Assembly: GCF_023277745.1 (NCBI RefSeq)
Contig: NZ_CP086322.1
Span: 6,200,001 to 6,264,000 of the forward strand
DNA: 64,000 nucleotides
Reading direction: 5' to 3'
Origin: Streptomyces halobius
GTDB lineage: Bacteria; Actinomycetota; Actinomycetes; Streptomycetales; Streptomycetaceae
Shown: positions 10,660 through 36,294 of the stretch, one piece after another
Layout: every line of letters begins with the position of its first letter
How positions within the stretch are numbered: the first letter of the stretch is position 1
The notes under the pieces: model-generated
What the model was told of the DNA's origin: nothing
The model's database searches: none
What the model saw: the letters and a program-made list of their open reading frames with translations, nothing else
Position numbers and translations under genes: made by a program

Positions 10660-11585
10660 TTCTTGCAGAGCTCCTCTGCTGTCAGGTCCGTCATGAACTC
10701 CTCGGTGAATCCGAACGGTTTGGCGATCCGCAGGAGTTCGCCGCTCTTCTTCATCTTGTGCAGCTCGGTGTTGAACGCGTCCCGGATTTTGGTCTCCCCC
10801 AGCCGGAATCCGTAACCGCCGCCGTCCCGCTGCGGTTCGCCGTCGACCATGGGGGTGAACGGGTCGGTCATCCCCACCTTGGGGTGCTCACCGGTCTTCA
10901 GTGCCTCGATCATCGTCAGGGCGGTCCCCGCGAAGCAGTCGATGCGCCCGGCCTCCAGGGCTTCCATACCGGCGATCTGGTCGGGGTAGAGGGAGATCTG
11001 GCTCTTCTTGACGCCGTTGGCCTTGGCGTACTCGATCTCCGCGTATCCGACGCCGGTGCCCATGCGGAGGCCCTGCGCGGCGACGTCCTTGTACCTCTTG
11101 ATCTTCTTCGGGTTGCCCTTCGGGACGAGGAAGCCGTCCTTCGACTCATAGTCCGGGTCCGAGAAGAGGACCGCCGCACAGCGGGCCTTGTTGATGAACA
11201 TGCCCGCGACGATCACATCGAACTGCATCGAGTGCAGCCCGGGGACCAGTCCGCCGAACTCGACCGGCACCGGTTCGAAGTTCTCGACCCCCAGTCGCTG
11301 GAAGATGGTCTTGGCGACGGCGGGCGCCTCGCCGGTGAGCTCTCCGCGGCTGTTGATCGACGCGTACGGCGGCTCGCTGGCGATGCCCATCCGTACGGTG
11401 CCCTTGTCCCGCAGATCGTCGAGCAGATGTCCCCCGTCCTTCGCTCCCGAGATGTCCACTCGTGCGCATCCGGCGGTCGCACCGATCGCGCCGGCCGCAC
11501 CGAACGCCGCCGCACCGGCAAGTAGCGAGCGGCGGCTGATCCCTTTTTTGTTGATTCCTGAGGTGTTCCCCTGTGGTGGAGGCAT
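10656..11585 (-). CDS. ehuB: Extracellular solute-binding lipoprotein of the importer (Tat substrate)
   Basis: 309-aa family-3 solute-binding protein that captures the substrate outside the cell. The N-terminus has a twin-arginine motif (SRRSLLAG), a hydrophobic stretch and a lipobox ending ATAGC. It is therefore probably exported folded through Tat and lipid-anchored at that cysteine. The mature part has the SBP3 pattern: GTVRMGIASEPPYASINSRG, a TGEAPAVAKTIFQRLGV helix, DVIVAGMFINKARCAAVLFS, and a GTGVGYAE phosphate-loop-like turn. First gene of its operon, divergent from the DUF3830 gene 246 bases away. Confidence 0.9.
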   Translation of the reverse strand: MPPPQGNTSGINKKGISRRSLLAGAAAFGAAGAIGATAGCARVDISGAKDGGHLLDDLRDKGTVRMGIASEPPYASINSRGELTGEAPAVAKTIFQRLGVENFEPVPVEFGGLVPGLHSMQFDVIVAGMFINKARCAAVLFSDPDYESKDGFLVPKGNPKKIKRYKDVAAQGLRMGTGVGYAEIEYAKANGVKKSQISLYPDQIAGMEALEAGRIDCFAGTALTMIEALKTGEHPKVGMTDPFTPMVDGEPQRDGGGYGFRLGETKIRDAFNTELHKMKKSGELLRIAKPFGFTEEFMTDLTAEELCKK

Positions 11586-23545: not shown

Positions 23546-23753
23546 GGACATACCTCCTGGTTCGTGTGCCGCAATCCATTGTCGCGCTTCGCGCAAGTAG
23601 GCCTGTCATCTCAGCCTGTCCGGCGCCTGAGGACGACGCGGCCGCAGGCCCGTGTGCCCCACCGGCGACGCGCGGCAGCGGCGCTACCGACGCCAGACGA
23701 CGCGATGTTCGTTCAGGTGCGCCAACACGGAGTGATTCGCCTCCCAGCCCTGG

Positions 23754-23765
23754 GAAAACAAGATC
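23754..23765. other. Candidate attL half-site arm
   Basis: GAAAACAAGATC, the inward-facing arm nearest the integrase; exact inverse of the sequence at 34921-34932. A CCTCC lies just outside it here and a matching CCTCC (read inward) abuts the right arm. The two-base crossover core could not be fixed. Confidence 0.55.
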
Positions 23766-23808
23766 ACCAAAGTTGGAGGCCAGGGCAGATGTAACAGAAG
23801 GTGGGCCT

Positions 23809-25557
23809 ATGTCCAGTGCACGACTCTTGCCCGGTATGCGAGTCCTCAAAGTGCGGCGCATCAGCCGCGACACCGAGGACAGCTCTGCCCTTGCCCGCCA
23901 AGGTGAGGAGCTGGACGCCGCGACCGAGGAAGGCCGGTACCTCGTAGCAGGCGAGGTCGAAGACTCGACCGTCTCGGGTGCCGTGAACCTCGACGAGCGC
24001 CCGAAGCTGGGCCGCTGGATGAAGGACCCGCTCTGGCACGAGTGGGATGCCCTCATGGTCACCTCCCTGGACCGCATCACCAGGGATCAGCACCACTGGG
24101 ACCGGTTCGCGGAGCGGTGCCACAAGGGCGGCAAGGAGATCGTCTGCCTCGATGACCCTGCCCTGGACATCCACACTCCCACGGGCCGCATGATCGCCTA
24201 CATCAAGGCGACTCAGGCTCAGGAGTACCGGGAAGCGATCGTCAAGAAGAGGAAGAACCAGACTCAGTATTACCGGGACGAGAACCTGTGGGGCGGCGGC
24301 ACCTGGCCGTTCGGATACCGCCCCGTCCTGGCGGACCACAAGGGTAAGCAGCGCTACAAGCTCATCATCGACCCCGTGACGGGTCCCCTGATCAGGGAGG
24401 CGTACGAGCGAATAGCCGAACAGGGCTGGTCCATGGGTCAGGTCTGCAACGACTGGAACGCGCGTCCCCGGCACCTGCCCGAGTGCCACGCCATCGGTAA
24501 GGAAGCCACAGCCGTGTGTGTCTGCGCCCGTGGCGTCCTCACGTCCCAGGACCACCAGCGGAGCGTGAACGCCGAGGGCAACAAGCCCGGGGCGAAGACC
24601 CATATCAAGGGCACCAAGTGGACCACTTCCACACTCGGCAAGATGCTGAAGAAGCCGGTCCTCAAGGGCGTTGCCATGCACAAGGGGGAGCCCCTGCTGA
24701 AGGACGGCATGCCGGTCAGGTGGGCCGATCCGATCCTCACGGATGAAGAGTTCGCCAAACTCCAGGTGGCCGTGACGAATCTCGGGAAGTACCGCGCAGG
24801 GATCAAGCCCAACGCTTCGCCTATGACCGGGGTTCTGTACTGCCCGTGCGGACTGAAGATGTACGAGAACAGTTCCCCCGCGAAGCTGAACACGGGGGAA
24901 GTCAGGGAGCACAAGTACTTCCGCTGCTCCTCCTGGTCCAATGGGACGGCCTGCCGGTTCTCTGTGTCGTGGCCGCAGGAGGAGCTTTACGAGGCAGCCG
25001 AGGAGGCGTTTCTCTCCAAGCTGGGCGAGCAGGAAATCGTGGAGCGGACCTACGTCCCCGGCAAGGACAACCGGCAGCAGATCAAGGAACTTGAGGCTGC
25101 GATGGAGAACCTTTCGCAAGCCATCGCCCAGGCCACGTCGGCCGTCACAGTGACCGCACTCACGGGCACCATGGAGCGCCACGCGGCGAACCTGGAAGAA
25201 CTGAAGGCTGAGCCGTTCGTACCCGGTCGTTGGGAAGAACGGAGCATCGGCCAGAGCTACCGGCAGAAGTGGGCGGCCATGGTCACCTGGAAGGAGCGAG
25301 GGCCGTTTCTTCGTAAAGCTGGGTTCCGCATGTTTCCGGTCGGCAGCCCCAAGGGGCCTTCCGCAGTTGGGCTCATCACGCCGAAGGACTTGCCCGAGCG
25401 TGCTGATGGGGCCTTGCAAGGACTGTGGGACCCCAGTGAGGGCGAGGAGTACGAGAGCGGAGCATTCGCAGCCTTCCAGGCGTTGCTGTCTTCCCTCCTG
25501 GAGGAAGCGGAGGAACGCCGGGAGCTGAAGGAAGAGAAGTATCGGAGCGACTTCTAG
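23809..25557 (+). CDS. Large serine recombinase (integrase)
   Basis: 582-aa phage-type serine integrase. The N-terminal resolvase domain (1-150) has VRRISRDTEDSSALARQGEE with probable nucleophile Ser19, and SLDRITRDQHHWDRF. The recombinase domain follows (TWPFGYRPVLAD, ... GPLIREAYERIAEQGWSMG). A zinc-ribbon is seen (YCPCGLKMYE ... FRCSSWSNGTACRF). A coiled-coil (QQIKELEAAMENLSQAIAQA) and C-terminal region complete it. ATG 23809 follows AGAAGGTG; the frame is open further upstream without coding bias. It catalyses directional attP x attB integration; no recombination directionality factor was recognised. Followed by a strong terminator. Confidence 0.96.
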   Translation: MSSARLLPGMRVLKVRRISRDTEDSSALARQGEELDAATEEGRYLVAGEVEDSTVSGAVNLDERPKLGRWMKDPLWHEWDALMVTSLDRITRDQHHWDRFAERCHKGGKEIVCLDDPALDIHTPTGRMIAYIKATQAQEYREAIVKKRKNQTQYYRDENLWGGGTWPFGYRPVLADHKGKQRYKLIIDPVTGPLIREAYERIAEQGWSMGQVCNDWNARPRHLPECHAIGKEATAVCVCARGVLTSQDHQRSVNAEGNKPGAKTHIKGTKWTTSTLGKMLKKPVLKGVAMHKGEPLLKDGMPVRWADPILTDEEFAKLQVAVTNLGKYRAGIKPNASPMTGVLYCPCGLKMYENSSPAKLNTGEVREHKYFRCSSWSNGTACRFSVSWPQEELYEAAEEAFLSKLGEQEIVERTYVPGKDNRQQIKELEAAMENLSQAIAQATSAVTVTALTGTMERHAANLEELKAEPFVPGRWEERSIGQSYRQKWAAMVTWKERGPFLRKAGFRMFPVGSPKGPSAVGLITPKDLPERADGALQGLWDPSEGEEYESGAFAAFQALLSSLLEEAEERRELKEEKYRSDF

Positions 25558-25579
25558 AGCTCCGGCGGCAGCACCAGAC

Positions 25580-25609
25580 CGAGGCCCCTGGGAGTCGCCA
25601 GGGGCCTCG
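25580..25609 (+). terminator. Terminator after the integrase gene
   Basis: CGAGGCCCCTGG pairs exactly with CCAGGGGCCTCG across a six-base loop, 23 bases after the integrase stop. Confidence 0.8.
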
Positions 25610-25636
25610 ACGCATTCCAACCGAGAGGACACACCC

Positions 25637-26239
25637 ATGCCCCGTACTGCGCAGCCGCGCCGCTTGCTCAAGGCGACGTACGACGTGAAAGAGGAGTGGA
25701 GCCGCGCCCTGTTCGACGCGTTCGGGCCGGGCGGGCTCCTCGCCCGTGAGGCCCCGGAGTTCGGACGTGAACACCTGCTGTGGGCGCTGGCGCAGCTCCG
25801 GGCTGTGAACGGGCGGACCGGGGCGATGTTCACTGGGGACACGGAGATAGCTCAACGGCTCGGCTACAACACCAAGGACCATCCGGGGAAGGTATGCCGG
25901 GACGTGCTGACGCGGTTCGGGTTCTTCACCCAGCAGGGGAAGAAGGGGCGGGCGGCGAATCTGCACCTGTCTGCTCCGGCGGCGCTGTTGGATGACTACG
26001 AGACGTTGGCCGGGGCTGCACAGGGCGAGGTCGTTGCCGTCACCGACACCAAACCGCCCAAGCCGCGCAGCAAGGCCGGGGTGGTCGACGCTGCGTCACG
26101 GCCGGCTCACACCACTGAGAACGGGACCGCAGAAGTCTGCCCCGCGCATCCGGAAGGGGATTGCCCAGACCCGAACAACCCATTCGGCGGGGCCATTCCG
26201 TGGGGTACGGAGGTCTGCATGCACCTCCGTGCTGCATAA
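25637..26239 (+). CDS. Element-encoded winged-helix-like protein
   Basis: 200-aa protein of unknown function. Residues 1-115 look like a winged-helix DNA-binding or replication-organiser domain (LLWALAQLRAVNGRTGAMFT, DTEIAQRLGYNTKDHPGK, VCRDVLTRFGFFTQQGKKGR). The rest is flexible and ends in a Cys/His/Pro-rich tail (EVCPAHPEGDCPDPNNP, CMHLRAA). GAGAGG precedes the ATG. Placed directly after the integrase, it could be an element regulator or replication factor; this is inference. Confidence 0.7.
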   Translation: MPRTAQPRRLLKATYDVKEEWSRALFDAFGPGGLLAREAPEFGREHLLWALAQLRAVNGRTGAMFTGDTEIAQRLGYNTKDHPGKVCRDVLTRFGFFTQQGKKGRAANLHLSAPAALLDDYETLAGAAQGEVVAVTDTKPPKPRSKAGVVDAASRPAHTTENGTAEVCPAHPEGDCPDPNNPFGGAIPWGTEVCMHLRAA

Positions 26240-26282
26240 TCGGCCCATTTCCCCGCTGTACCGGGGACTTAGTTAGTAGTGA

Positions 26283-26322
26283 GTAGTTGGTAGTACGTAG
26301 CTCTTAGAGCGTAGTTGGTAGT
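26283..26322. repeat. GTAGTTGGTAGT direct repeats
   Basis: GTAGTTGGTAGT occurs at 26283 and 26311, with a degenerate copy just upstream. The centre-to-centre spacing of 28 bp is close to three helical turns, as for protein-binding repeats. Confidence 0.7.
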
Positions 26323-26326
26323 GAGA

Positions 26327-26352
26327 AGAGGGCCCCCTTGCCGGGGCCCTCT
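26327..26352 (+). terminator. Terminator hairpin
   Basis: AGAGGGCCCC (26327-26336) pairs with GGGGCCCTCT (26343-26352). It follows the winged-helix gene by about 90 bases. Confidence 0.8.
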
Positions 26353-26613
26353 CTCGTTCATGAACTCAGGTCCAGGACTTGAGGAGTCCTGAACCAGCCC
26401 AGGCCATCGAGTGAGGACCTGACGAGCGAACGACAGAAGGGCCCACGAGATACAGAAGCCCATCCGTCTCGGTTGTGATCTGCATCCCTTTTCGGGAGTT
26501 CACCGACAGCCTTAGTGAAAATCTCACCGACGCATAGGGTGTGAGAAAAGCTCTCCGGATGGTGTCCCCTCGCCTCTCGAAGGACACCGACGTTAATAGT
26601 GGAGAGAGTTCCG

Positions 26614-26656
26614 AGGCCCTGGCCCCTACATGGTGGCCGGGGCTTCTTCATTTTTG
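26614..26656 (+). terminator. Hairpin with T-run before the XRE gene, candidate attenuator or small-RNA terminator
   Basis: GAGGCCCTGGCC pairs imperfectly with GGCCGGGGCTTC, and the sequence then runs into CTTCATTTTT. It lies about 45 bases upstream of the XRE start and has no coding gene before it, so it may end a short leader or RNA transcript. Confidence 0.5.
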
Positions 26657-26699
26657 GCTTCCGATTCGCATGGGAGCCAGCAACCGCAAGGAGTTCCTT

Positions 26700-26954
26700 A
26701 TGTTCGATCGTCACGCTTTCGCTGCCCGTCGTATCACCCTTGGCCTGTCCGTTGAGGAACTGGCCGACGAAATGCTGGTTGCCCCGTCCACCATCTACCG
26801 GTGGGAGAACGGGGAGACCTGCCCGAGCCTGCGGATGCTGGTGCAGGCGTCCCGGCACCTGTGCACGCCGCTGCTGTCCCTCATGAGCGACGCCGACACC
26901 GAGCAGTACCGCAAGGCCACCGCAGTGGACGCCCTGCTTCGCGAGGGCGCCTGA
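26700..26954 (+). CDS. Small XRE-type helix-turn-helix protein
   Basis: 84-aa DNA-binding protein that is little more than one HTH_3 domain: FAARRITLGLSVEELADEML, APSTIYRWENGETCPSLRML. ATG 26700 follows AAGGAG by six bases; longer in-frame starts run through the upstream hairpin and are rejected. Its stop overlaps the next start (TGATG). Probably the regulator of the element's forward transcription unit. Confidence 0.85.
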   Translation: MFDRHAFAARRITLGLSVEELADEMLVAPSTIYRWENGETCPSLRMLVQASRHLCTPLLSLMSDADTEQYRKATAVDALLREGA

Positions 26955-27394
26955 TGCCCAACATCGAGAGTGAGGAGTTCGCGGAGGCTCAGGCCGTGGC
27001 CGCCGACTCCGAGAACGACGAAGCAATTGCCGATGGCGTGGAGAGGGCAGCGGAATCGGACCTCACTGAGAGGGAATCCGAGGATGCCATCAAGGCCAAG
27101 GAAAAGTACGTTGCCAAACTCATTGATGTGACCATGGATGACTTGATCGGGAAGCTGAAGCGTAAGCGACCCGATCCGGAGTTTCTTGGGTTCGTGGATT
27201 ACGGGCAGTTTCTCGGGACGGATGGCCTTCCCGATGAGAGCCGCATCAAGGAGTTCGTGACCAACCTTGAGAAGGACCCTCAGAAGGTTGAGGAAGAGGC
27301 GCAGTACGCCCAGGGCATAGGCGTGGGCCGTCACGGGCCGCCCCAGGCCGGGTATGCCCGCAAGACGCTTTCCCTTGACGCCCGTTACCGATAG
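26954..27394 (+). CDS. Phage scaffold-like protein
   Basis: 146-aa highly charged, helical protein (ESEEFAEAQAVAADSENDEA, KAKEKYVAKLIDVTMDDLIG, EFVTNLEKDPQKVEEEAQYA). It lies immediately before the capsid gene, the usual place for an assembly scaffold. The composition fits; no enzymatic motif is present. The start is coupled to the XRE gene. The call is by context rather than a diagnostic motif. Confidence 0.6.
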   Translation: MPNIESEEFAEAQAVAADSENDEAIADGVERAAESDLTERESEDAIKAKEKYVAKLIDVTMDDLIGKLKRKRPDPEFLGFVDYGQFLGTDGLPDESRIKEFVTNLEKDPQKVEEEAQYAQGIGVGRHGPPQAGYARKTLSLDARYR

Positions 27395-27409
27395 CCCGCA
27401 GGAGGACCT

Positions 27410-28330
27410 TTGACTACTCACGCATACCAGAACCCCGGCACCAAGACGTTCGTTCCCGAGGTGTGGGACTCCGAACTCCTCACGCAGTTTGACCCGTTGC
27501 TGGTGTGGGCGTCTCCGCTCGTCACCAACCGGAAGTACGAGGGGAACATCAGCAAGCAGGGCGACACGGTTCACGTGAACTCGCTCCTGCGGCCGACCGT
27601 GGGCGACTACACCCTTGCCGACGGCATGACCTCACAGCGTCCGGAGACGGTGGATCAGATCATCCACATCACGGAGGCGAAGTACCTTCAGGTACTCACC
27701 GAGGCCATCGAGCAGCTCCAGGCGGCCGGTTCGCTGTCGGAACCGATCAACCGGGAGATGATCCGGGGCCTTGCCCTAGAGGCCGACACGTTCATGGGCG
27801 CCATTGTGGCTGCCGGGGCCACCGCGGCCCCGAAGGTGACCACCACGGCAGGCCAGGAACCACAGGCCCTGTTCACGGCGATTCTGGACATGATGCTCGC
27901 CCTGGACGAGAACGACATTCCCAACGACGGCAGCCGCTATGTGGTCGTCTCCCCGAAGGCGAAGCGCCACCTGATCGAGCACCCGAGCATCGCCAACGCC
28001 GCCGCGTACGGGGCCGCTGGCGCCACCGCCAACGGACACGTGGCCACGCTGGCGAACTTCAAGGTCCTGTCCACCACGGCCATGCCCACCGGCGTGGACA
28101 TCGTGGCCGGTCACCCGGACTTCGCCACCTTCGCCTCTCAGTTCTCCGGCTTCCGTCAAGGCCAAAGCGAGAAGTACCGGGGTGACTACCTCGACAACGT
28201 CCACTTCTACGGCGGGAAGATCGTCCGCTTCCCGGCACTGGACACCAAGAAGGCGGACAAGACCTTTGACGAGACCAAGCCCACCAAGGGCATCGTGAAG
28301 GCGGCCGTGGAGTGGGCTACTCCGGCCTGA
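27410..28330 (+). CDS. Major capsid protein
   Basis: 306-aa phage coat protein resembling the P22-coat/HK97-fold group. The N-terminus reads FVPEVWDSELLTQFDPLLVW. A core has GDTVHVNSLLRPTVGDYTLA, DQIIHITEAKYLQVLTEAI, ALDENDIPNDGSRYVVVSPK and a C-terminal YRGDYLDNVHFYGGKIVRFP. The TTG start at 27410 follows GGAGG by four bases, 15 bases after the scaffold-like gene. Full length for this class, so the element can probably build its own head shell. Followed by a terminator with a T-rich tail. Confidence 0.85.
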   Translation: MTTHAYQNPGTKTFVPEVWDSELLTQFDPLLVWASPLVTNRKYEGNISKQGDTVHVNSLLRPTVGDYTLADGMTSQRPETVDQIIHITEAKYLQVLTEAIEQLQAAGSLSEPINREMIRGLALEADTFMGAIVAAGATAAPKVTTTAGQEPQALFTAILDMMLALDENDIPNDGSRYVVVSPKAKRHLIEHPSIANAAAYGAAGATANGHVATLANFKVLSTTAMPTGVDIVAGHPDFATFASQFSGFRQGQSEKYRGDYLDNVHFYGGKIVRFPALDTKKADKTFDETKPTKGIVKAAVEWATPA

Positions 28331-28344
28331 CGCCGCATCCCCTC

Positions 28345-28375
28345 CGGGGCCTCTGCCGAACTGGCAGGGGCCCCG
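28345..28375 (+). terminator. Terminator after the capsid gene
   Basis: CGGGGCCTCTGCC pairs with GGCAGGGGCCCCG with one wobble, and is followed by CTTCCTTTGTTCC. Confidence 0.75.
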
Positions 28376-28471
28376 CTTCCTTTGTTCCTTCGAGCTGGCC
28401 CCGGAGCGCCCTCCCGTTCGCGCTCCGGAAGGCTGGCCGTCACCCACCGCGACCATCCAGGAGGCTCCACC

Positions 28472-28819
28472 ATGCCCAAGCCACGAAACCCCCAGTCTCC
28501 GCACTCCCGATACCGGGAGGCGCAGAGGATTACCGTCCTGCCGCTCGACCACGGATTGCCCGTCCCGGATATGCCAGAGGGGCGGGAATGGTCGGAACAT
28601 GAACGGGTCTACTGGCGGGAATTGTGGGAGACGCCGCAAGCCTCACAGTGGGACGATTCCACGGCCGGAATCGTGTCTGCAGTTGTCGTTTATTGGTCCG
28701 CGATCCTGGCCGGTACAGCGTCGAACACCCAGCACATGGAGTACCGCCATCTGACGAAATCGCTCGGTCTCACTCCGGAGGGAATGCGGGCGCTCGGCTG
28801 GGTGACGGGAGATGAATAG
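28472..28819 (+). CDS. Small-terminase-like phage protein
   Basis: 115-aa protein with MPDGREW-type start features (LPVPDMPEGREWSEHERVYW), then RELWETPQASQWDDSTAGIV, and a C-terminal helix-turn near RHLTKSLGLTPEGMRAL. This pattern is common in actinophage proteins annotated as small terminase subunits, which recognise pac/cos DNA. No large terminase is present in the window, so packaging would have to use a helper's motor (inference). CCAGGAGG precedes the ATG. Confidence 0.6.
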   Translation: MPKPRNPQSPHSRYREAQRITVLPLDHGLPVPDMPEGREWSEHERVYWRELWETPQASQWDDSTAGIVSAVVVYWSAILAGTASNTQHMEYRHLTKSLGLTPEGMRALGWVTGDE

Positions 28820-29033
28820 CAAGCTCGCTCGACGGAGGGCTCAGCAGAACGTCAGCACGCCACCCGAGCCCACAGGGCAGCAGGAGCACAGGGCGGGGGT
28901 CGAGTGCCGTTACGCCTGCTCAGAATGCTGGCTGAGCTGGTGCCTGCACACGGCCTGGCTGGCCGCAGACGGGGCGGCGGAACCGTGGGGCGACGGACGC
29001 CGACATGCTCCGGAAGCGTGCTTCGAGTGCTGA
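28812..29033 (+). CDS. Small cysteine-rich protein
   Basis: 73-aa protein overlapping the preceding gene by eight bases, hence coupled. A basic N-terminus (KLARRRAQQ) precedes a Cys-rich part, CRYACSECWLSWCLHTAWLA and ending CFEC, with six cysteines that could bind zinc. Unknown function; possibly a small DNA- or terminase-associated factor. Confidence 0.55.
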   Translation: MNSKLARRRAQQNVSTPPEPTGQQEHRAGVECRYACSECWLSWCLHTAWLAADGAAEPWGDGRRHAPEACFEC

Positions 29034-29278
29034 AAATTGATTGGCAAACATTCGATGGAAGGAGGGCACCCCTGGTGGGTCCTACGGAGAATCAATAATC
29101 CATTACCCCCCGTATTCATGCAATTAGAGTTATGTGTTTGTGATCTTGTATTTATATGGGCGTGACCTTTGGTCGGCATTGTTGATCTCGTACCGCAGTG
29201 AATGCGGGGCCGTTGAGGAAACCTCCGGCCACTCACTGAGACTTCACCTGTCAGCCTGAATCAAAGGAATGCAGCGCC
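29034..29278. promoter_or_regulatory. A+T-rich intergenic region upstream of the Lsr2-type gene
   Basis: The most A+T-rich stretch in the window, especially 29085-29175 with ATTCATGCAATTAGAG and TTGTATTTATAT. In this GC-rich background such DNA is typical of Lsr2-type silencer targets, promoters or replication origins. It precedes the gene for a BRCT-Lsr2 fusion, so autoregulation is plausible. No iterons or perfect palindromes were identified. Confidence 0.6.
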
Positions 29279-30052
29279 ATGCGTAAGACCGTTCTTGTAC
29301 CTGTGCTCAAAGCGGTGTGCGATGCCCACCTGTCGAAGGACGGCAGCGAGGAAGAGGCGACGGAGACGCTGACTCTGGGGCACCGCACGTGGGACCTGTG
29401 CCTGGAGCACCGGGCCGTGTTCGCCAGGTACCTCGTGGATGCCCTGGGAGCCGGTCTGCCGGAGGCTGACGAATCACAGGATGAGCCCGAGCCTGCACCC
29501 GTCACGATGGTTGCCGAGCCTGAGCCCGTGCCTGTGGCTGAGCCGTCGCCCGTCGTGGCGGAGTGCGATGCGGAGGACGTGAGCGAGTCAGCGTCGGAGG
29601 CTGGGCCTGTGCCGTCCGTGATGATCAGCGGAGAGATCGACGGGTACGACTGGGAGTCGGCCCGTCAGGCCGTGCGAAACCTGGGCTACGAGGTAGTTGG
29701 CCGTGCGGACGAGTCCACAGTCCTACTGATCGTGGGTGAGGGTGGCGACCGCAACGGTACGAAGCTGCGAGACGCTGCGGAACGCGGACTGCCCGTGATG
29801 GACGTACGGACCCCGGGCCGGTTCCGGGACGCGATTCGGGCCGGTGAGTTGGTGGGCGGTGATCCGCTTCCGGAGCCTGCCAAGGTCGATCGGTCGGGCA
29901 TGAGTGAGCGTGAGCGCAACAAGGCCGTACGGCGATGGGCACGGGCCAACGGCTACACCGTGCCGGATCGCGGACGCATCCCGCTCCACGTCCGCCACGC
30001 ATGGGAGCTGACGCACAGGGACGCGCCGGAGGGAAAAGCGGCTGCGGCCTGA
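29279..30052 (+). CDS. Zinc-finger/BRCT/Lsr2 fusion DNA-binding protein
   Basis: 257-aa protein with three recognisable parts. Residues 1-65 hold a CxxH...CxxH pair (VCDAH, DLCLEH) typical of small actinomycete Lsr2-associated proteins. An acidic linker follows (EPEPAPV, EPEPVPVAEPSP). Residues ~110-190 look like a BRCT domain (ISGEIDGYDWESARQAVRNL, GYEVVGR, TKLRDAAERGLPVMD). The C-terminus is the Lsr2 DNA-binding domain (NKAVRRWARANGYTVPDRGR, IPLHVRHAWELTH). Lsr2 proteins silence A+T-rich foreign DNA; an element-borne version could control the element, its helper phage or host genes. AAAGGA lies ten bases before the ATG. Confidence 0.8.
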   Translation: MRKTVLVPVLKAVCDAHLSKDGSEEEATETLTLGHRTWDLCLEHRAVFARYLVDALGAGLPEADESQDEPEPAPVTMVAEPEPVPVAEPSPVVAECDAEDVSESASEAGPVPSVMISGEIDGYDWESARQAVRNLGYEVVGRADESTVLLIVGEGGDRNGTKLRDAAERGLPVMDVRTPGRFRDAIRAGELVGGDPLPEPAKVDRSGMSERERNKAVRRWARANGYTVPDRGRIPLHVRHAWELTHRDAPEGKAAAA

Positions 30053-30066
30053 ACGCCGCGCCCACC

Positions 30067-30093
30067 GTGCCGGGCGCCGAGTGCGCCCGGCAC
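30067..30093 (+). terminator. Strong hairpin between the Lsr2-type and DUF3987 genes
   Basis: GTGCCGGGCGC pairs exactly with GCGCCCGGCAC around CGAGT. It has no T-run and may attenuate rather than end transcription. Confidence 0.65.
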
Positions 30094-30140
30094 CCCCGGC
30101 CAGAGGCCACCCAACTAACCCTTCTTGAGATAGAGGCAGC

Positions 30141-31532
30141 ATGAGCACCCCCGTTCTGTACGGTCCCATCGGTCGCGCGGTCCGCAAGATCGCCCCGTTC
30201 CTCGAAGCGGACGCATTGGGGGTGTACGTGGCCGCCCTGTCGATGTGGTCGGCCGCCATCGGTGGAACGGTCAAGGTCTCTTCCCGTGGCAACGCCCGGC
30301 CCGTGCTTCTGTGGTCGGCTCTCGTGGCCGGAACGGGCAGGGGCAAGGGAACCGCGCTGCGGGCGGCGCTTCACGTCCTGGACAAGTCTCTGGGTCGGTT
30401 CCTGGCAACCCACACCACATCCGGGATCACGTCCGGAGCGAGTCTGGTCAACCACCTGTGGGAGCAGCAGGAAGCGACCACCGAAACTGAACGGGGCCGG
30501 GACGTCCGGGCCCTGGTGGTGGAGGAGGAATGGACGGAGGTATTGAAGCGGGTCAAGCGCGACCCATCGTTCACCACCAAACTCCGCGCTGCCTGGGACG
30601 GGGCAACTCTGCGCAACACCACCAAGGAGGAGGCGCAGGAAATCCGTGATCCCGCCATGGTCCTCCATTCCCACATCACTCCGTCCGACTGGGCCAGGTA
30701 CGTAGGCGAGTCCGAAGCGGCCGGAGGCTCGTACAACCGCATCCTGCCGTTCCTGCTGGGCTCAGTGCCGATGCTGGATGACGACCGGGTGAGCCTGCCC
30801 AAGGTGGACGGGGGAGACCTGTCCGACGCCTACGCATGGGCCACCGCCCGCCCCCGCGTGCTCGCACTCGGAGAAGACGCCCGGCCGCTGTGGCGGATCG
30901 TAAGGCGCTATGCCCGCATCCTGGGCGAGACGCTGCCGGAAGCACAGGCGGTGTACGTCGAACGGACCGCAGAGCAGACGCTCAGGGTCGCGGCCTGCCT
31001 GGCCGCCTCCGAGTGCTCCGAGACCATCACGGACGAGATCCTGACGGCCGCCTTCACGCTGGTACGCCGCTCAGTCCGGGACGCGGTGAGTGTCACCAGA
31101 GGTCAGACCGCGATTCGGGAAGTCCCGCAGCGTGGGAAGCGGCAGCCGCTCAGCATCGCGGACAAGGTACGCGCTCGGATCGAACTGCACGGCGGTGCTG
31201 CCACGTCGTCTCAGGTCCTCCCGTACGTCGGGGCGACCGCAGCGGAGGTCAAGGCACTGCCCGAAATCGCGGTGACTGTGGAACGGTCAGGGATGACCGG
31301 TCGACCGAAGACGGTGTTCACACTCCGCGATGCCACTCCCGATCACGCAGAGCAGCCGAACGAGGTCCCCAAGCCGCAGCCGGCCAGCGCGGAGCGTGAC
31401 GACGCGAACCGCGCCACGGTCGTGCAGATGGACGCTTACCGCCCGGCACCCAAGCAGGCCCCGGAGCCCGCGCCCAAACCGAAGCGGTCGAAACCGCTCA
31501 CCGACGTGAACCCCTTCCTGGCTCTGCTCTGA
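30141..31532 (+). CDS. DUF3987-type P-loop ATPase, probable element replication protein
   Basis: 463-aa protein. An N-terminal segment (LEADALGVYVAALSMWSAAI) leads to a Walker A-like loop AGTGRGKGTAL (about 64-73) and an acidic VVEEEW Walker B candidate. The pattern SGASLVNHLWEQQ ... FTTKLRAAWDG and a C-terminal winged-helix-like region (IADKVRARIELHGGAATSSQ) match DUF3987 proteins of phages and plasmids. These are thought to act as primase/helicase-like replication ATPases. The Pro/Lys-rich tail is flexible. GAG-rich RBS before the ATG; followed by a bidirectional terminator. Confidence 0.75.
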   Translation: MSTPVLYGPIGRAVRKIAPFLEADALGVYVAALSMWSAAIGGTVKVSSRGNARPVLLWSALVAGTGRGKGTALRAALHVLDKSLGRFLATHTTSGITSGASLVNHLWEQQEATTETERGRDVRALVVEEEWTEVLKRVKRDPSFTTKLRAAWDGATLRNTTKEEAQEIRDPAMVLHSHITPSDWARYVGESEAAGGSYNRILPFLLGSVPMLDDDRVSLPKVDGGDLSDAYAWATARPRVLALGEDARPLWRIVRRYARILGETLPEAQAVYVERTAEQTLRVAACLAASECSETITDEILTAAFTLVRRSVRDAVSVTRGQTAIREVPQRGKRQPLSIADKVRARIELHGGAATSSQVLPYVGATAAEVKALPEIAVTVERSGMTGRPKTVFTLRDATPDHAEQPNEVPKPQPASAERDDANRATVVQMDAYRPAPKQAPEPAPKPKRSKPLTDVNPFLALL

Positions 31533-31553
31533 ACCACTCGAACAAACCCAAGA

Positions 31554-31577
31554 ACGCCCCCGTCGAAACGGGGGCGT
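31554..31577. terminator. Bidirectional terminator between convergent operons
   Basis: ACGCCCCCGT pairs exactly with ACGGGGGCGT around CGAA, between the forward ATPase gene and the reverse cargo operon. Confidence 0.85.
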
Positions 31578-31592
31578 CTCTTTGCTTAGGGC

Positions 31593-32699
31593 CTACTGCT
31601 GGCCGACGACGTTATGCGGATCGTCCAGCCACACCCGCTGTCCGTCACGATCGACCGACAGGCCGAACCGGGACCGTTCCGGCTTCCCCAAGTCATGCCA
31701 ACTAAGGAACGCCTTCCGCACCTCATCCCACAATGCACGGGGCCCGTACTGCTCCACCTCGTACGTCTCCGCGTCCGGGGCGTATTCCACGGTCGCCCAC
31801 GACTTCCGATCGTCCGCGAAGAACCACAGAGTGGCTTCCCCACTGTCGTCGTCCGCGTCGCACCACCGGTACCACGTATCCGTGAGGCTCAGGCCGGTGA
31901 AGAACGCCGGATCGTCCTGGATGACGTTCTGCGGCGCGATGTCGGTACTGCCCTTCTCTCCCTCCTCCCCGTGGTAGATGTCCGGGATACGCCCCGCACC
32001 GCCTCGGTGGGTGCGGTCCCACATGAAAGCCGGGTGACCGGAGAACGACCCCTGAGCTTTCCCGTTCATCACGTCCAGCGTCGCGTACGAGCCGTTGAAG
32101 AAGCTGCTGCCCCATGGGGTGACGATCCGCCCGTTCGGGCACTGCTCCAACCACGCTGGCGGTACTTCGCGCATAGTGCAGGTGCAGATGATCCGGTCGT
32201 ACGGCGCGCCCCAGTGATGCCCGTCACGGCCGTTCCCGAGAATCGTCGTCGGGTGGAATCCCGCCCGTTTCAGGTTCTCCGCAGCGGTGGACAACACTGC
32301 CTCGTCAACCTCCACCGAGGTCACGTTGTTCTCGCCCAAGCGGTGAGACAACCAGGCGGCGTTGTAACCGGTGCCCGTACCGACCTCCAGCACCCGTTGC
32401 CCCTCCCGTACATCGAGCAGGCCCAGCATTTCGAGCATGATCGACGGCATGGAAGAGGACGAGGTGAAGAGCCGGAACGAGCCTTCCGGTGTGCTCTCCC
32501 CGTCGTTCACCTGGGTGACCACGGGCGCATCCGAGTAGACCGCCTGCAACCAGTTCTCGGGATCGGTGGAGAAGTCCCCTTCTTCGATGACCTCGGGAAT
32601 GAACAGCGCGCGATCCACAGAGGTCACGGCGTCTCGCCACTCAGGCGGCAACACGCCCTTGCTCTTGAGCGCCTCCACGAGCCGCTGTTGCGTCGTCAT
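31593..32699 (-). CDS. PCMT-like (protein-isoaspartate methyltransferase family) SAM methyltransferase, possible RiPP tailoring enzyme
   Basis: 368-aa methyltransferase. The N-terminal region (LVEALKSKGVLPPEWRDAVT, SVDRALFIPEVI) and motif I VLEVGTGTGYNAAWL (103-117) follow the protein-L-isoaspartate methyltransferase pattern. SSSSMPSIMLEMLGLL and DRIICTCTMREVPPAWLEQ are typical of the versions that accompany ATP-grasp peptide maturases. About 160 extra C-terminal residues (YRWCDADDDSGEATLWFFAD) exceed a plain PCMT. The gene starts six bases after the stop of a 36-aa peptide. No ATP-grasp gene is present. It may methylate the peptide, a host protein or a small molecule. Confidence 0.8.
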   Translation of the reverse strand: MTTQQRLVEALKSKGVLPPEWRDAVTSVDRALFIPEVIEEGDFSTDPENWLQAVYSDAPVVTQVNDGESTPEGSFRLFTSSSSMPSIMLEMLGLLDVREGQRVLEVGTGTGYNAAWLSHRLGENNVTSVEVDEAVLSTAAENLKRAGFHPTTILGNGRDGHHWGAPYDRIICTCTMREVPPAWLEQCPNGRIVTPWGSSFFNGSYATLDVMNGKAQGSFSGHPAFMWDRTHRGGAGRIPDIYHGEEGEKGSTDIAPQNVIQDDPAFFTGLSLTDTWYRWCDADDDSGEATLWFFADDRKSWATVEYAPDAETYEVEQYGPRALWDEVRKAFLSWHDLGKPERSRFGLSVDRDGQRVWLDDPHNVVGQQ

Positions 32700-32705
32700 G
32701 CGGCC

Positions 32706-32816
32706 TCACTTCTTCGGCGGCTCGTACGGCTTGGTCGGGCCCGGCGGCTTGTCGCGGTGGCCGTCGCTGTCGGACGTGTCGGGCCTGCCGGAGTGGTCTC
32801 CGCCCTTCTTGCCCAT
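32706..32816 (-). CDS. 36-aa peptide immediately upstream of the methyltransferase gene
   Basis: Small open frame on the reverse strand: starts MGKKGGDHSGRPD, centre TSDSDGHRDK, ends GPTKPYEPPKK. Six bases separate its stop from the methyltransferase start, and 39 bases lie between it and the preceding gene, so it sits inside a tight operon. It is hydrophilic, Asp/Ser/Lys/Pro-rich and lacks Cys and a signal sequence. A substrate peptide for the methyltransferase is a reasonable guess by position, since Asp residues are the targets of PCMT-type enzymes. Weak GAGACAGAG ribosome-binding site. Confidence 0.55.
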   Translation of the reverse strand: MGKKGGDHSGRPDTSDSDGHRDKPPGPTKPYEPPKK

Positions 32817-32855
32817 CTCTGTCTCACTTCCCGTTGCTGACAATGACATGACGGA

Positions 32856-33101
32856 TCAGAAGCCATACTGCATACGGGACTTCTCCCGCTCCCGCCGCTC
32901 CATACCAGGAAACGCACGGTGGTCGAGTGCTCGCGTGAGCTGCGCCTGAAGGACCGACGCGTCATCGACGCTCAGGAACACTTCCTCCGTCGCGATGTGC
33001 ACGGGGCCACGGAAGACCATGGCCGAGACCGCGACGTGGTCGCCGACCATACGTGCACCACCAGTGAGCTTCAGTCTGCGAGGGGCTTCGTCGTCCGCCA
33101 T
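32856..33101 (-). CDS. Small hypothetical protein of the cargo operon
   Basis: 81-aa protein: MADDEAPRRLKLTGGARMVG, VAVSAMVFRGPVHIATEEVF, LSVDDASVLQAQLTRALDHR. Probably a compact beta-rich domain followed by a helix and a basic tail. No family recognised. ATG 33101 is preferred over the longer frame from 33164 because coding bias begins there. The position between a regulator and the peptide gene is similar to small partner proteins seen with Scr1-type HTH genes. Confidence 0.6.
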   Translation of the reverse strand: MADDEAPRRLKLTGGARMVGDHVAVSAMVFRGPVHIATEEVFLSVDDASVLQAQLTRALDHRAFPGMERREREKSRMQYGF

Positions 33102-33164
33102 GCCAATGACGCTACGAAGGGCGGTAGTTGCCGGTCCACGAAGTTGCACGTTGTTGCAGAGCAA

Positions 33165-34013
33165 TCAGTCGAGAGCGTCAATCGCCCTGCTAATCAAGGT
33201 CCGGGCGCGCGGCCCGTACACGGCCATCTCGGCGAGGCGTGCAAAGGCCCGCTTGTACACGTCCACCTCCGTCGGTGTCGTCACGGTGACCTTCGCGGCC
33301 AGCAACTCAACGTGGACCCGCTTGTCATCGAACATCGTGAACGTCTCTGGCCCCCACATGACCCGGGACGCAGTGCGAGGAATGATGCCCAGTGAGACGG
33401 CGGGGTAGGCCATCGCCGTCAACAGGTAGCCGAGCTGGCCGGCCATCACGGAGTTACTGCCGATGCGGTGGGTGAGTACGTCTTCCTCGATGAGCAGAAC
33501 AACGCGGTGGAGGCCGTCGCGGATGATGTGGGACCGGTCCACCCGTGCGGCTGCGGCCTCGTTAACGTCGTTGGGAAGCCCCCGAAACTCCGCAATGAGG
33601 GACAGAAGGGCTCGCGCGTAGCCCTCGGTCTGGAGGAAGCCGGGCATGACCCGAGCGGAGTAGGCGCGAAACAGCGTCGTGCGTTCGTACAGTGGGACGC
33701 TGGCCTGTTGCAGCCTACGTAGGCCGGTGCGCTGCATTCGCCGCCACTCGACATACATCGAATCGGCGGATCGGGACGAGGCGATGAGGTCTGCTGCCTG
33801 TTCCTCGGCGTCACACGCAGTGCACCAAGCCCTGATATCGGAATCTGCCGGTGCGGTCTTCGCGGCCTCGATGCGAGACGTCTTGGCTTTGTTCCAGCCG
33901 CACTGATCAGCCAGCCCTTGCATCGTCAGATTCGCATCAAGCCGTAGGTCCTTGAGCCGTGCCGAGACGGACTCACGAGCGGCCTGGGCGCCGGAGAACG
34001 GAGACGATGGCAT
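33165..34013 (-). CDS. XRE-family regulator with DUF5753 (Scr1-type) domain
   Basis: 282-aa protein with an N-terminal HTH (LKDLRLDANLTMQGLADQCG, WNKAKTSRIEAAKTAPADSD) and a C-terminal DUF5753 domain. The latter has the diagnostic LLRAYSA-type patch (LFRAYSARVMPGFLQTEGYA) and EDVLTHRIGSNSVMAGQLGYL. Streptomycete Scr1-type regulators pair with small DUF397-like or DUF6879 proteins in orphan toxin-antitoxin-like or antibiotic-control modules. Here it follows the DUF6879 gene by 30 bases. Confidence 0.85.
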   Translation of the reverse strand: MPSSPFSGAQAARESVSARLKDLRLDANLTMQGLADQCGWNKAKTSRIEAAKTAPADSDIRAWCTACDAEEQAADLIASSRSADSMYVEWRRMQRTGLRRLQQASVPLYERTTLFRAYSARVMPGFLQTEGYARALLSLIAEFRGLPNDVNEAAAARVDRSHIIRDGLHRVVLLIEEDVLTHRIGSNSVMAGQLGYLLTAMAYPAVSLGIIPRTASRVMWGPETFTMFDDKRVHVELLAAKVTVTTPTEVDVYKRAFARLAEMAVYGPRARTLISRAIDALD

Positions 34014-34043
34014 GGGCTGGCTGACGGGATGCGAGGCGGATGA

Positions 34044-34562
34044 TCAGACCGTGTACTCCTCGTGAGGGATACCGCGTTCCCATACGGCCTCAAATGATGC
34101 AGCGAATAGCTTGAGGACTGCCGGTTCCGTACTGAACTCGTCAGCGACCAGAGAGCCGTCCCCGGCGAAGTGGTGAATCCTGGCCAATCGATCATCAAAC
34201 AACCAATAATCATTGCCAGGAAGGGCAAGATCCGACGCGAGGCGGCGGGGCAGCCATCGGACCTGTTCCCCAGCACTGACGTTGGCACGTGTGACGTAGT
34301 GCTCCCAGCGGATGTACTCCGAGACCGGCTCGCTCACGATGCGGGCTCGGCGGATCGACACGCCCCGCGCCGCTGCTTCGGCAATCTGGTCGTGGAATCC
34401 CCGCCACCACGTTGCCCGGTCGTCCCAGTTGATCCGCGCTCCGTGTCGCCACGCAGCGAACCGCTCGTTATCGCCGTAGGCGTCCCGCATCTCCAGGTGG
34501 ACCGCTGAGCGGTCTGTGTCCCTGATGACCTCAGCGAAGCTCGGCTGAGTGTTCTGCGGCAT
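34044..34562 (-). CDS. DUF6879-like protein
   Basis: 172-aa protein with the pattern FAEVIRDTDRSAVHLEMRDA, an RW-rich patch (ERFAAWRHG, WDDRATWWRGFHDQIAEAAARG), then EPVSEYIRWEHYVTRANVSAGEQVRWLPRR split over two motifs, and FDDRLARIHHFAGDGSLVAD. These match DUF6879 proteins that accompany XRE/DUF5753 genes in Streptomyces. Biochemical role unknown. ATG 34562 follows AGGAAGG. Its 5' end overlaps the upstream gene by 32 bases in another frame. Confidence 0.78.
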   Translation of the reverse strand: MPQNTQPSFAEVIRDTDRSAVHLEMRDAYGDNERFAAWRHGARINWDDRATWWRGFHDQIAEAAARGVSIRRARIVSEPVSEYIRWEHYVTRANVSAGEQVRWLPRRLASDLALPGNDYWLFDDRLARIHHFAGDGSLVADEFSTEPAVLKLFAASFEAVWERGIPHEEYTV

Positions 34563-34776
34563 CGCATGCCTTCCTAATCTGCGGCACCATTCGCGCCGGG
34601 ATACGAATGACAGCCTCGGTGTCAGGGATCGAACCGACCTCCAGGCACTTCTGCTGTGTCGCGTCGTCGGCCTTCCACCCTTGCAAGACGAGATCAGCGT
34701 TCTCGTCGTCAACCCAGACCGTCGGGCAGTGGTCGTCGTCCGTGTTGGGGTCCTTGCCGAAGAACAGTAGAGACAT
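34531..34776 (-). CDS. Small hypothetical protein, first gene of the cargo operon
   Basis: 81-aa protein: MSLLFFGKDPNTDDDHCPTV, WVDDENADLVLQGWKADDAT, then EAVIRIPARMVPQIRKACDAA. Short proteins of this type commonly precede DUF6879 genes. GAGAGG precedes ATG 34776; the longer frame from 34950 is not supported. It lies about 145 bases inside the right end, so the operon promoter should be at 34777-34920. Confidence 0.65.
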   Translation of the reverse strand: MSLLFFGKDPNTDDDHCPTVWVDDENADLVLQGWKADDATQQKCLEVGSIPDTEAVIRIPARMVPQIRKACDAAEHSAELR

Positions 34777-34920
34777 GGCTACCTCTCCCGCGTCGAGCAT
34801 GTTGCGACTTGTTGCATGACCCTCACCCTGCGGGGGCGGCTCGTCAAGGGTGAGTACGAGCCAGCGGCCCCATGAGAGAGGGGCGGTTAGGCCATGACCT
34901 TGTGGTCTATGCTGCTGTGC

Positions 34921-34932
34921 GATCTTGTTTTC
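34921..34932. other. Candidate attR half-site arm
   Basis: GATCTTGTTTTC, the exact inverse of 23754-23765. It ends 21 bases before the helicase stop codon on the reverse strand, so the element inserted just past that gene without truncating it. Confidence 0.55.
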
Positions 34933-34953
34933 GGAGGCATCCGAACCCATGAC

Positions 34954-36294
34954 TCACGGGCGCCAGCTCACGCGGTGCTCTTGCCAGTGATCCCATGTGG
35001 TGAACATTGCCTCCCAGCCGTCCGGGAACTTGACCGTGACACCCAGCTGCACCGGCTCCGTCGCCGGGTGTTCGTCCAGCAGCTCCGCGACGCCCGCCCG
35101 GCACACCACGATGCAGGCGTGCCGGTGCCGGGAGGCGAGTACGCACAGGCGGCCGGTCTCCAGATGGAAGGCGGTGGCGTCGGGGCGGCCGGAGAGCGGG
35201 TGCAGGACGACCGTGACATCGAACTCGCGGCCCTGGAGACGGTTGGCGGTGTCCACCGCGACGCCCGTCACCCCCAGGGCGGCGAGCGCGGCGCGGACCG
35301 CCGCCGCCTGATCGCGATGGGCGGTGCCGACCGCGATCCGGGCAGCCGACAGCGGTGCCGGACCGTGGGTGTGCTCGCTGGTCGTGGTGCCGCCGCGGTC
35401 GAGCAGCCGGCGCACCACCAGGGCCACCGCGCGCACCGCCTCCGGATCCGTGCGCGGCGTGTGGCGGGCGGGGAGTTCCAGCAGGCCCCAGCCGGATTCG
35501 GCGGCCTCGTCCAGGACCCGGTCCACGCCCGAGCCGTCGGAGGGCACATCGAAGGCGAGGTGCCGGTCGCCGTGATCCGTGCCGCTGCGGAACGGCGTGT
35601 ACGGATAGAACGCGTCGGATACGAGGGGCGCGGCGGAAGCGGGGAGGCGCCAGGAGACCGGCAGGCGGTGCTGCGGCAGGTCCGGGTTGTGGGCCAGCAG
35701 GGTGGACACCGCGCTCGACGACGGGTCGTACGCCAGCCCGGCCCACTGCTCGGCGCCGACCACGCTGAACGGATCCAGCTGCCCCGGATCGCCGACGAAC
35801 AGCGCCCGCTCGAAGAGCCCGGCGACGGTCAGCAGCGCATCGGAGCGCATCTGGTACGCCTCGTCCACGATGGCGTGCCGCCACGGCTCGTCGACCTTGG
35901 TGTACGCCCACTTCGCGGCCGTCGAGACGACGATGTCCAGCCCGGTCAGATCGGCCGCCTTCGCGGACGTACGGACCGCGGGCAGCTCCGCCAGCGCCGG
36001 GTCGAACGCGCCGGGCTCGCTGCTGTGCAGCCGGCCGACCGGCAGCTCCCGGTCCTTCTCGGCCAGCCGCAGGACGAGGTCGTCGACCTGGGCGTTGGTC
36101 TGCGCCACGATCATCAACGGGCGTCCCGCGGCGGCCAGTTCGCGGGCCGCACGGACCACGAGGGTGGACTTGCCGGCGCCGGGCGGGGAGTCCACGACCA
36201 CGCCGCGCCGGCCGCCGTGCAGCGTGTCGTGCAGGATCGCGGCGGTCGCGGCGGTGGCGGCGGCCGCGGGGTCGAAGGAGCCCGTGGGGTTCAA
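34954..36294 (-). CDS. SF1 (Dna2/UPF1-like) DNA helicase, third gene of the nuclease-X-helicase operon
   Basis: 446-aa superfamily-1 helicase. Motif I is DSPPGAGKST (35-44) and motif Ia MIVAQTNAQ. Motif II is VDEAYQM, III GDPGQLDPFS (168-177), and IV includes SWRLP. V reads DTANRLQGREFDVTVV and VI LCVLASRHRHACIVV. All motor motifs look complete; there is no N-terminal Fe-S or nuclease domain. The TTG start at 36294 overlaps the preceding stop (TTGA) with GGAGG seven bases upstream, so it is coupled. With the nuclease two genes upstream it resembles a split Dna2/AddAB-like machine; a repair or phage-defence role is inference. Confidence 0.9.
   Translation of the reverse strand: MNPTGSFDPAAAATAATAAILHDTLHGGRRGVVVDSPPGAGKSTLVVRAARELAAAGRPLMIVAQTNAQVDDLVLRLAEKDRELPVGRLHSSEPGAFDPALAELPAVRTSAKAADLTGLDIVVSTAAKWAYTKVDEPWRHAIVDEAYQMRSDALLTVAGLFERALFVGDPGQLDPFSVVGAEQWAGLAYDPSSSAVSTLLAHNPDLPQHRLPVSWRLPASAAPLVSDAFYPYTPFRSGTDHGDRHLAFDVPSDGSGVDRVLDEAAESGWGLLELPARHTPRTDPEAVRAVALVVRRLLDRGGTTTSEHTHGPAPLSAARIAVGTAHRDQAAAVRAALAALGVTGVAVDTANRLQGREFDVTVVLHPLSGRPDATAFHLETGRLCVLASRHRHACIVVCRAGVAELLDEHPATEPVQLGVTVKFPDGWEAMFTTWDHWQEHRVSWRP

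Follow-up and report, generated by a model that had tools for sequence, protein, structure and literature searches.

An integrated element of Streptomyces halobius is very probably a cos-type phage satellite that encodes its own head and borrows the rest of its particle

What kind of mobile element carries a capsid gene of its own but no recognizable packaging motor, portal or tail? This question is raised by an element of 11.27 kb that lies at positions 23739-35019 of a 64,000-nucleotide stretch of the Streptomyces halobius chromosome (hereafter the window; positions 6,200,001-6,264,000 of a 9.24-Mb genome in a single contig). An earlier note on this DNA had proposed a phage satellite. Our comparisons support that proposal, and a cos-like site common to the element and to named full-size phages adds evidence for a helper. 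We consider it very probable that the element is a cos-type phage satellite, which would make its own head and take the motor, portal and tail of a helper phage.

The element is delimited by an 11-bp direct repeat, GCCTCCCAGCC, with the attL core at 23739-23749 and the attR core at 35009-35019, the latter within a host AAA/helicase gene (34954-36294, - strand) whose 3' end serves as attB. A displaced native-type 3' end of this gene is found to the left of attL, and its present 3' end comes from the element side. The site is uninterrupted in relatives: of 30 helicase loci, 21 have the two flanking host genes next to each other within the flank examined, the 30 including the window's own locus and an occupied one in genome G101. 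These two are among the nine loci in which the neighbour gene is missing, the remaining seven being one locus that lies at the end of its contig and six in which no neighbour was seen. The G101 element (L040) is related and has a serine integrase; its location and attL sequence are those of the window's element, and the helicase gene ends there in a similar way. The shared core and the uninterrupted sites are those of site-specific integration, as is required of a phage satellite. The ends given earlier, 23754 and 34932, proved to be an inner 12-bp inverted pair and are replaced by the direct core. A further small serine-integrase element (L120:14609-18979, in another Streptomyces, G025) adjoins the same helicase gene and has two small genes in common with the satellites.

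The genes from the integrase to a DUF3987 ATPase run forward, and a cargo module from a methyltransferase to a DUF6879 gene is convergent with them. At the left end is the serine integrase (23809..25557, +; Resolvase 1.3e-19, phrog_95 2.2e-80), which belongs to the same integrase cluster as that of L040. The head genes lie in the middle of the forward module. The major capsid protein (27410..28330, +) matches phrog_267 at 5.7e-42, and a profile made only from satellite sequences matches the solved capsid 8e16, which we take to have the HK97-type fold, at 1.5e-25; we assign the protein to the HK97 type on this homology. The product of the gene directly before it (26954..27394, +) has no match to any Pfam, PHROG or NCBIfam model, and we label it a scaffold from its position and from a BLAST cluster common to satellite and phage scaffolds; for one family member the scaffold gives a 2e-6 match to phrog_4708 'head scaffolding'.

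Downstream of the capsid gene is a gene for a protein like the small terminase subunit (TerS; 28472..28819, +), 28% identical to a mycobacteriophage gene 1 product annotated 'terminase small subunit'. It matched 286 phage records, with 28% identity in the 20 listed, and several of the matches listed bear the same annotation as gene 1. The Pfam Terminase_7 match (E-value 4e-5) reaches 24 bits, below the cut-off of 27. The family profile matches phiSASD1 gp21 (NC_014229 188-565) at 2e-12, an unannotated gene directly before that of the large terminase subunit (TerL); gp21 is a TerS homologue. The phage matches and the position of gp21 bear out the TerS label at the level of homology, and gene position disfavours the names given to this family by PHROG ('minor tail') and by some RefSeq records ('minor tail protein'). 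The forward module continues with an Lsr2 DNA-binding protein with a BRCT-like domain (29279..30052, +; Lsr2_DNA-bd 7.5e-13; BRCT 0.0012, under the cut-off) and closes with the DUF3987 replication ATPase (30141..31532, +; Pfam 5.8e-15), which is 34-37% identical to proteins of phages Ponzi, Ibantik and Success.

No Pfam match to a portal, large terminase, protease, tail, lysis or FtsK/Tra protein was found among the called genes of the element, and the PHROGs scan covered its forward-strand genes and one cargo open reading frame (ORF). Two portal searches across 40 genomes, 15 of which have elements or capsid-less kin, found no portal inside any element. BLAST clustering, which very diverged forms would escape, and best-hit comparison revealed no member of a TerL or portal cluster in 17 capsid-bearing elements. 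The absence of a full virion gene set is thus a conserved state across the elements and not a single deletion. The gene content reported earlier (integrase, regulators, scaffold, capsid, TerS-like protein, ATPase and a silencer, here the Lsr2 protein) is confirmed by the Pfam and PHROG matches, the scaffold by position and cluster, and so is the combination of an own capsid with no match to a portal, large terminase, protease, tail or lysis gene.

The same gene order, which the earlier note had suggested looking for in related genomes, is found again, within the reach of their contigs, in 16 further elements with a capsid gene, which argues that the element is more than a chance assemblage. 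The family comprises 17 such elements in context and one remnant. In Streptomyces, 15 of 392 genomes have a match to the capsid profile at 1e-40; 13 of these, better than 1e-160, belong to the family and two are full prophages. The 13 genome matches, two RefSeq loci (L013, L014) and two IMG/VR contigs (L018, L127) make up the 17. The core order is integrase, HTH/xis genes, scaffold, capsid, TerS where present (about half of the members have their own), Lsr2, DUF3987 and inverted cargo, with XRE/DUF6879 genes near the right end in many. The scaffold escaped the gene caller in L013, L038 and L043, but in L043 there is a tblastn match to it.

The size of these elements is narrowly distributed: the 11 of 17 with both ends measured span 10,614-11,625 bp (mean 11,189, standard deviation 282), including L043, whose capsid gene has an in-frame TGA and was left out of the tree and the substitution analysis. 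Outside this set are L040 (~10,979 bp, read by eye), L041 (~11,206 bp, from a 75% repeat), L042 (~11,129 bp), and G190, L018 and L127, whose contigs end too early for measurement. The closest relatives are of this size and empty sites exist, which speaks against the reading that the earlier note had named as refuting a satellite, a copy with deletions of complete prophages of 35-60 kb. Three target sites have measured repeats, namely the 3' end of the helicase gene, used by serine integrases, and the 3' end of an acyl-CoA dehydrogenase gene and tRNA-Leu(GAG), used by tyrosine integrases; the repeats at a fourth (L041, L042) are tentative.

A capsid tree of 16 elements and the remnant places all 17 family sequences in one clade (100/100) on a stem of 1.74 changes per site, far from phage capsids. 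Integrase type does not track this tree, the serine-integrase element L040 grouping with tRNA-Leu elements. The median ratio of nonsynonymous to synonymous substitution rates (dN/dS) of the capsid gene is 0.118, the lowest of eight genes tested on pairs with dS below 1.2. There are also six capsid-less kin of 5.4 to 13.1 kb (L107, L108, L110, L111, L112 and L123), of which L108, L110 and L111 are plainly degraded. Across the class, 394 genomes were searched; matches of family strength came from the window's genome only, and three other genomes matched at 2.5e-41 to 5.2e-43; protein clusters at 48-53% were seen in Nonomuraea and relatives among the 120 of 151 matches listed. The viral contigs yielded two capsid loci, one a distant relative, and four DUF3987 loci, two of which (L018, L127) are satellites; no free particle genome was recognizable among these loci. 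The remnant lies in the window's own genome (L008:9171-10336), where another capsid gene of the family, 70% identical, lies with a fragment of a scaffold gene among transposase-like genes.

How might such an element enter a particle? A conserved non-coding block upstream of the Lsr2 gene contains a cos-like site (29037..29082, +, delineated from a 13-sequence alignment), with a step at ~29066/29067 that equals the ends of phage records. A profile of this site from TerS-less elements matches the junctions of deposited ends in Success (8e-13) and Ibantik (3e-12), and also picks up prophages, at 7e-15 in G282 and at 7e-9 in G035, as well as an IMG/VR contig (2e-12). The profile from TerS-bearing elements, the window's version, matches the same two phage junctions more weakly (4e-7 for Success and 5.5e-10 for Ibantik). 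Both phage records have their ends at one and the same step, which follows GGAAGG and precedes a C-run, the record ends being assumed to be physical ends. The link of the block to these genome ends is new, and by homology to them it is likely to be a cos site, which a helper may use as a packaging signal.

An exact form of the phage-type pattern occurs at 12 sites in 10 of 384 genomes, with none in a backward control; five are in satellites, five lie within ~10 kb of a DUF3987 gene in actual or apparent full prophages and two are unassigned. The pattern is strict: it caught five of the eight TerS-less satellites searched, missing G125, G326 and G210, and also missed the G035:C3 prophage site found by the profile. 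G035, identified as Streptomyces mashuensis JCM 4059, the host of element L012, thus combines a satellite with two loci of full-prophage type. At E <= 1e-3 no cos block was detected in L107, L108, L109, L110, L111, L114 or the remnant L008. Success and Ibantik are further connected to the family by their DUF3987 proteins (34-37%) and by scaffolds and capsids that the family profiles recognize.

Immediately 5' of the step the sequence is TTGATTGRC in elements with TerS (TTCATTGGC in L037; the window, with TTGATTGGCAAAC, is of this type), whereas TerS-less elements have CCCGTACAC, which Success and Ibantik have in the same or a closely variant form. In eight elements of each kind the segment type is associated with the presence of TerS (Fisher 1.6e-4, weaker as a statistical test given shared ancestry and the short distance between the two), and with L112, G190 and L043 added the segment agrees with TerS status in 10/10 TerS-bearing and 9/9 TerS-less elements. 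L113, which is cut by a contig end and has the CCCGTACAC type, stands outside this count. On a plain reading, elements would either retain the recognition segment of the helper and use its TerS, or bring their own TerS with their own segment.

A second exchange affects the head genes themselves. In sister elements of G349 and G396 the same chassis has, in place of capsid and scaffold, a 56-residue protein (c70) and a helical protein of ~235 residues (c31), the swapped module lying at L123:5833-6729 and L112:12387-13277. At its end c70 resembles the C-terminal part of phage scaffolds (phrog_2592, 1e-5), with 56% identity to the Success scaffold over 25 residues, so that c70 looks like a decoy that would bind the helper's capsid protein. 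The scaffolds of the own-capsid elements are without this helper-type C-terminal tail and end in an SLDxRxR-like sequence. The model of c31 (predicted local distance difference test, pLDDT, 78; long helices) found no PDB match at E <= 0.001.

From the boundaries, empty sites, family, gene content, selection and cos homology seen in these sequences we infer a course of events in which the element would excise upon entry or induction of a helper phage and be replicated by its DUF3987 ATPase. Its capsid and scaffold proteins would form a separate shell around a helper portal, and its TerS, or the helper's in TerS-less members, would bring the helper TerL to the element's cos. TerL would then pack a single 11-kb genome into the small head, to which a helper tail would be added. 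We also lean, with less assurance, towards a more specific version in which the elements are cos satellites of Success- and Ibantik-type phages and form hybrid particles, using two swappable capsid strategies and a TerS/cos pair that is either private or borrowed.

Several observations weigh against this picture. The AlphaFold model of the capsid is poor (pLDDT 54, from a 20-sequence alignment) and was set aside in favour of sequence homology to a solved capsid, and the tree program warned of long branches in the capsid tree. The capsid is nearer to those of phiSASD1-type phages (31%; profile 5e-47) than to those of the proposed helpers, being 24% identical to the capsids of helper-type prophages in G035 and G025, and the satellite TerS profile matches phiSASD1 gp21 and not the TerS of Success or Ibantik; this proximity to phiSASD1 genes makes it less assured that the head would fit the helper's portal and that TerS would fit its TerL. 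The cos profile search reported no match in phiSASD1, MiniFlayer, MulchRoom or the phiSASD1-type prophages searched, and the window's genome has no match to the phage-type cos pattern. The TerS-cos link concerns related sequences in neighbouring DNA, which may have been inherited as a cassette. Satellite genomes show no clear excess of helper-type portals over the other genomes (5/15 vs 4/25, and 5/15 vs 3/25 for another portal).

The chief rival, which we regard as unlikely, is that the satellite capsid protein mixes into the helper's shell, shrinking or poisoning it. This is how the published satellite capsid homologue Ccm of SaPIbov5 works, according to PMC8569155, and the replacement of capsid and scaffold by a mimic of the helper scaffold tail in the sisters implies that this slot concerns capsid control. 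Yet mixing sits poorly with an identity of only 24% to the helper-type prophage capsids and with an own scaffold that has the SLDxRxR-like end rather than the helper-type segment. Less probable still is that the helper is a phiSASD1-type or other unsampled phage and that the cos-like block is something else, for example a replication origin shared by way of the DUF3987 gene. The capsid and TerS are indeed nearest to phiSASD1-type genes and the block lies directly upstream of the replication genes, but the deposited ends of the Success and Ibantik genomes fall within the block, the same search reported no phiSASD1 match, and the scaffold mimic fits Success.

We give little credence to a decayed prophage that retained its head genes by chance. 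The capsid remnant among transposase-like genes in the same genome and the degraded kin L108, L110 and L111 would suit such decay, in contrast to 17 capsid-bearing elements at several sites, uniform in size in the 11 measured, with low capsid dN/dS and a single capsid clade. The least probable of all is an integrative plasmid whose shell would be a compartment like an encapsulin and not a particle for transfer: the combination of a replication ATPase and an integrase with virion genes limited to the head would agree with it, but a scaffold, a TerS-like protein and a cos-like site would have no role in a compartment, and the called genes gave no FtsK/Tra match in Pfam. An actinomycete integrative conjugative plasmid was rejected for want of a Pfam match to an FtsK/Tra translocase among the called genes, a difference from typical integrative plasmids already drawn in the earlier note.

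Among known systems, PMC8569155 describes SaPIbov5, a Staphylococcus aureus pathogenicity island (SaPI), as a small integrated element with the capsid homologue Ccm, which forms pentamers in a shell otherwise made of helper capsid protein, and with cos-type packaging by the helper. Our element resembles such cos SaPIs in size, integration, capsid homologue and cos-like site, as read here from its sequence, but differs in carrying both capsid and scaffold, far diverged from the proposed helper, and in belonging to a different phylum. MulchRoom and MiniFlayer are likewise Streptomyces satellites with their own capsid and scaffold, the former with an integrase and an Lsr2-like gene; unlike the element, in which neither was found, they encode TerL and portal, and profile and hhalign comparisons with them gave an Lsr2-type match only and no related capsid, scaffold or TerS. 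Capsid-forming phage-inducible chromosomal islands (cf-PICIs) have, according to PMC10690885, genes for portal, protease, connectors and the two terminase subunits alongside the capsid gene. The element likewise would make its own capsid, but only capsid, scaffold and a TerS-like gene were found in it. By its genes it is thus neither a cf-PICI nor a Mulch/Flayer satellite. Success- and Ibantik-type phages and prophages share with it DUF3987, cos-like ends and a distantly related scaffold and capsid, Success and Ibantik being complete phages of 56-57 kb with portal, terminases and tail. No published description of the family was found in a search of mostly open literature, which an earlier description may have escaped; the nearest work is PMC10690885 together with PMC10023795, which remarks that prophage elements of small size in actinobacteria could be satellites.

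The remaining features of the element are mostly small genes and regulators. A 200-residue early protein (25637..26239, +) has no family match and has relatives in L037, L039 and L040. Four imperfect 14-bp tandem repeats (window 26267-26336) lie upstream of a helix-turn-helix (HTH, XRE) regulator gene (26700..26954, +; HTH_3 2.2e-12; relatives in L013, L039 and L127). A small ORF adjoins TerS (28812..29033, +; weak matches in L013 and L018). The Lsr2 gene is preceded by an AT-rich conserved non-coding leader (29083..29278, +), within which a hairpin-like CCGTTAGAGCAACGCTCCGG motif of many satellites is diverged in the window (29205-29260). Promoter and terminator scans did not rise above chance; a terminator-like hairpin after the capsid gene (28345..28375, +) is suggestive, with five such sites against 5.9 expected by shuffling, and another, on both strands, separates the convergent modules (31553..31578).

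The cargo comprises a methyltransferase of the ATP-grasp peptide-system type (31593..32699, -; TIGR04188, 313.5 bits, under the cut-off of 380), two small ORFs of 47 and 64 residues (32706..33050, -; the ORFs that overlap them have no family match), an XRE/DUF5753 regulator (33165..34013, -; DUF5753 3.7e-32), and a DUF6879 protein with an 89-residue partner (34044..34800, -; DUF6879 2e-53), a pair that recurs near the right end of many elements. The methyltransferase stands beside the 47-residue peptide (window 31593-32849), and no ATP-grasp enzyme was called in the element. PADLOC, run on 10 cargo proteins, returned generic methyltransferase and HTH-type matches only. Elsewhere in the window, three tRNA-Lys(CTT) genes (3211, 6480 and 22057) lie inside 19 kb, a region that also holds a lower-GC cluster of transporter-type genes (~8479-11459).

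If true, this reading would mean that antibiotic-producing bacteria harbour a further satellite family, one that divides the labour in a manner between those of the known types, with its own shell and a borrowed motor. The cos match names as candidate helpers isolated phages that grow on a laboratory host, which would allow direct testing. The exchange of an own capsid for a scaffold decoy, and the pairing of TerS with cos, would offer natural comparisons for how satellites choose their heads and their DNA.

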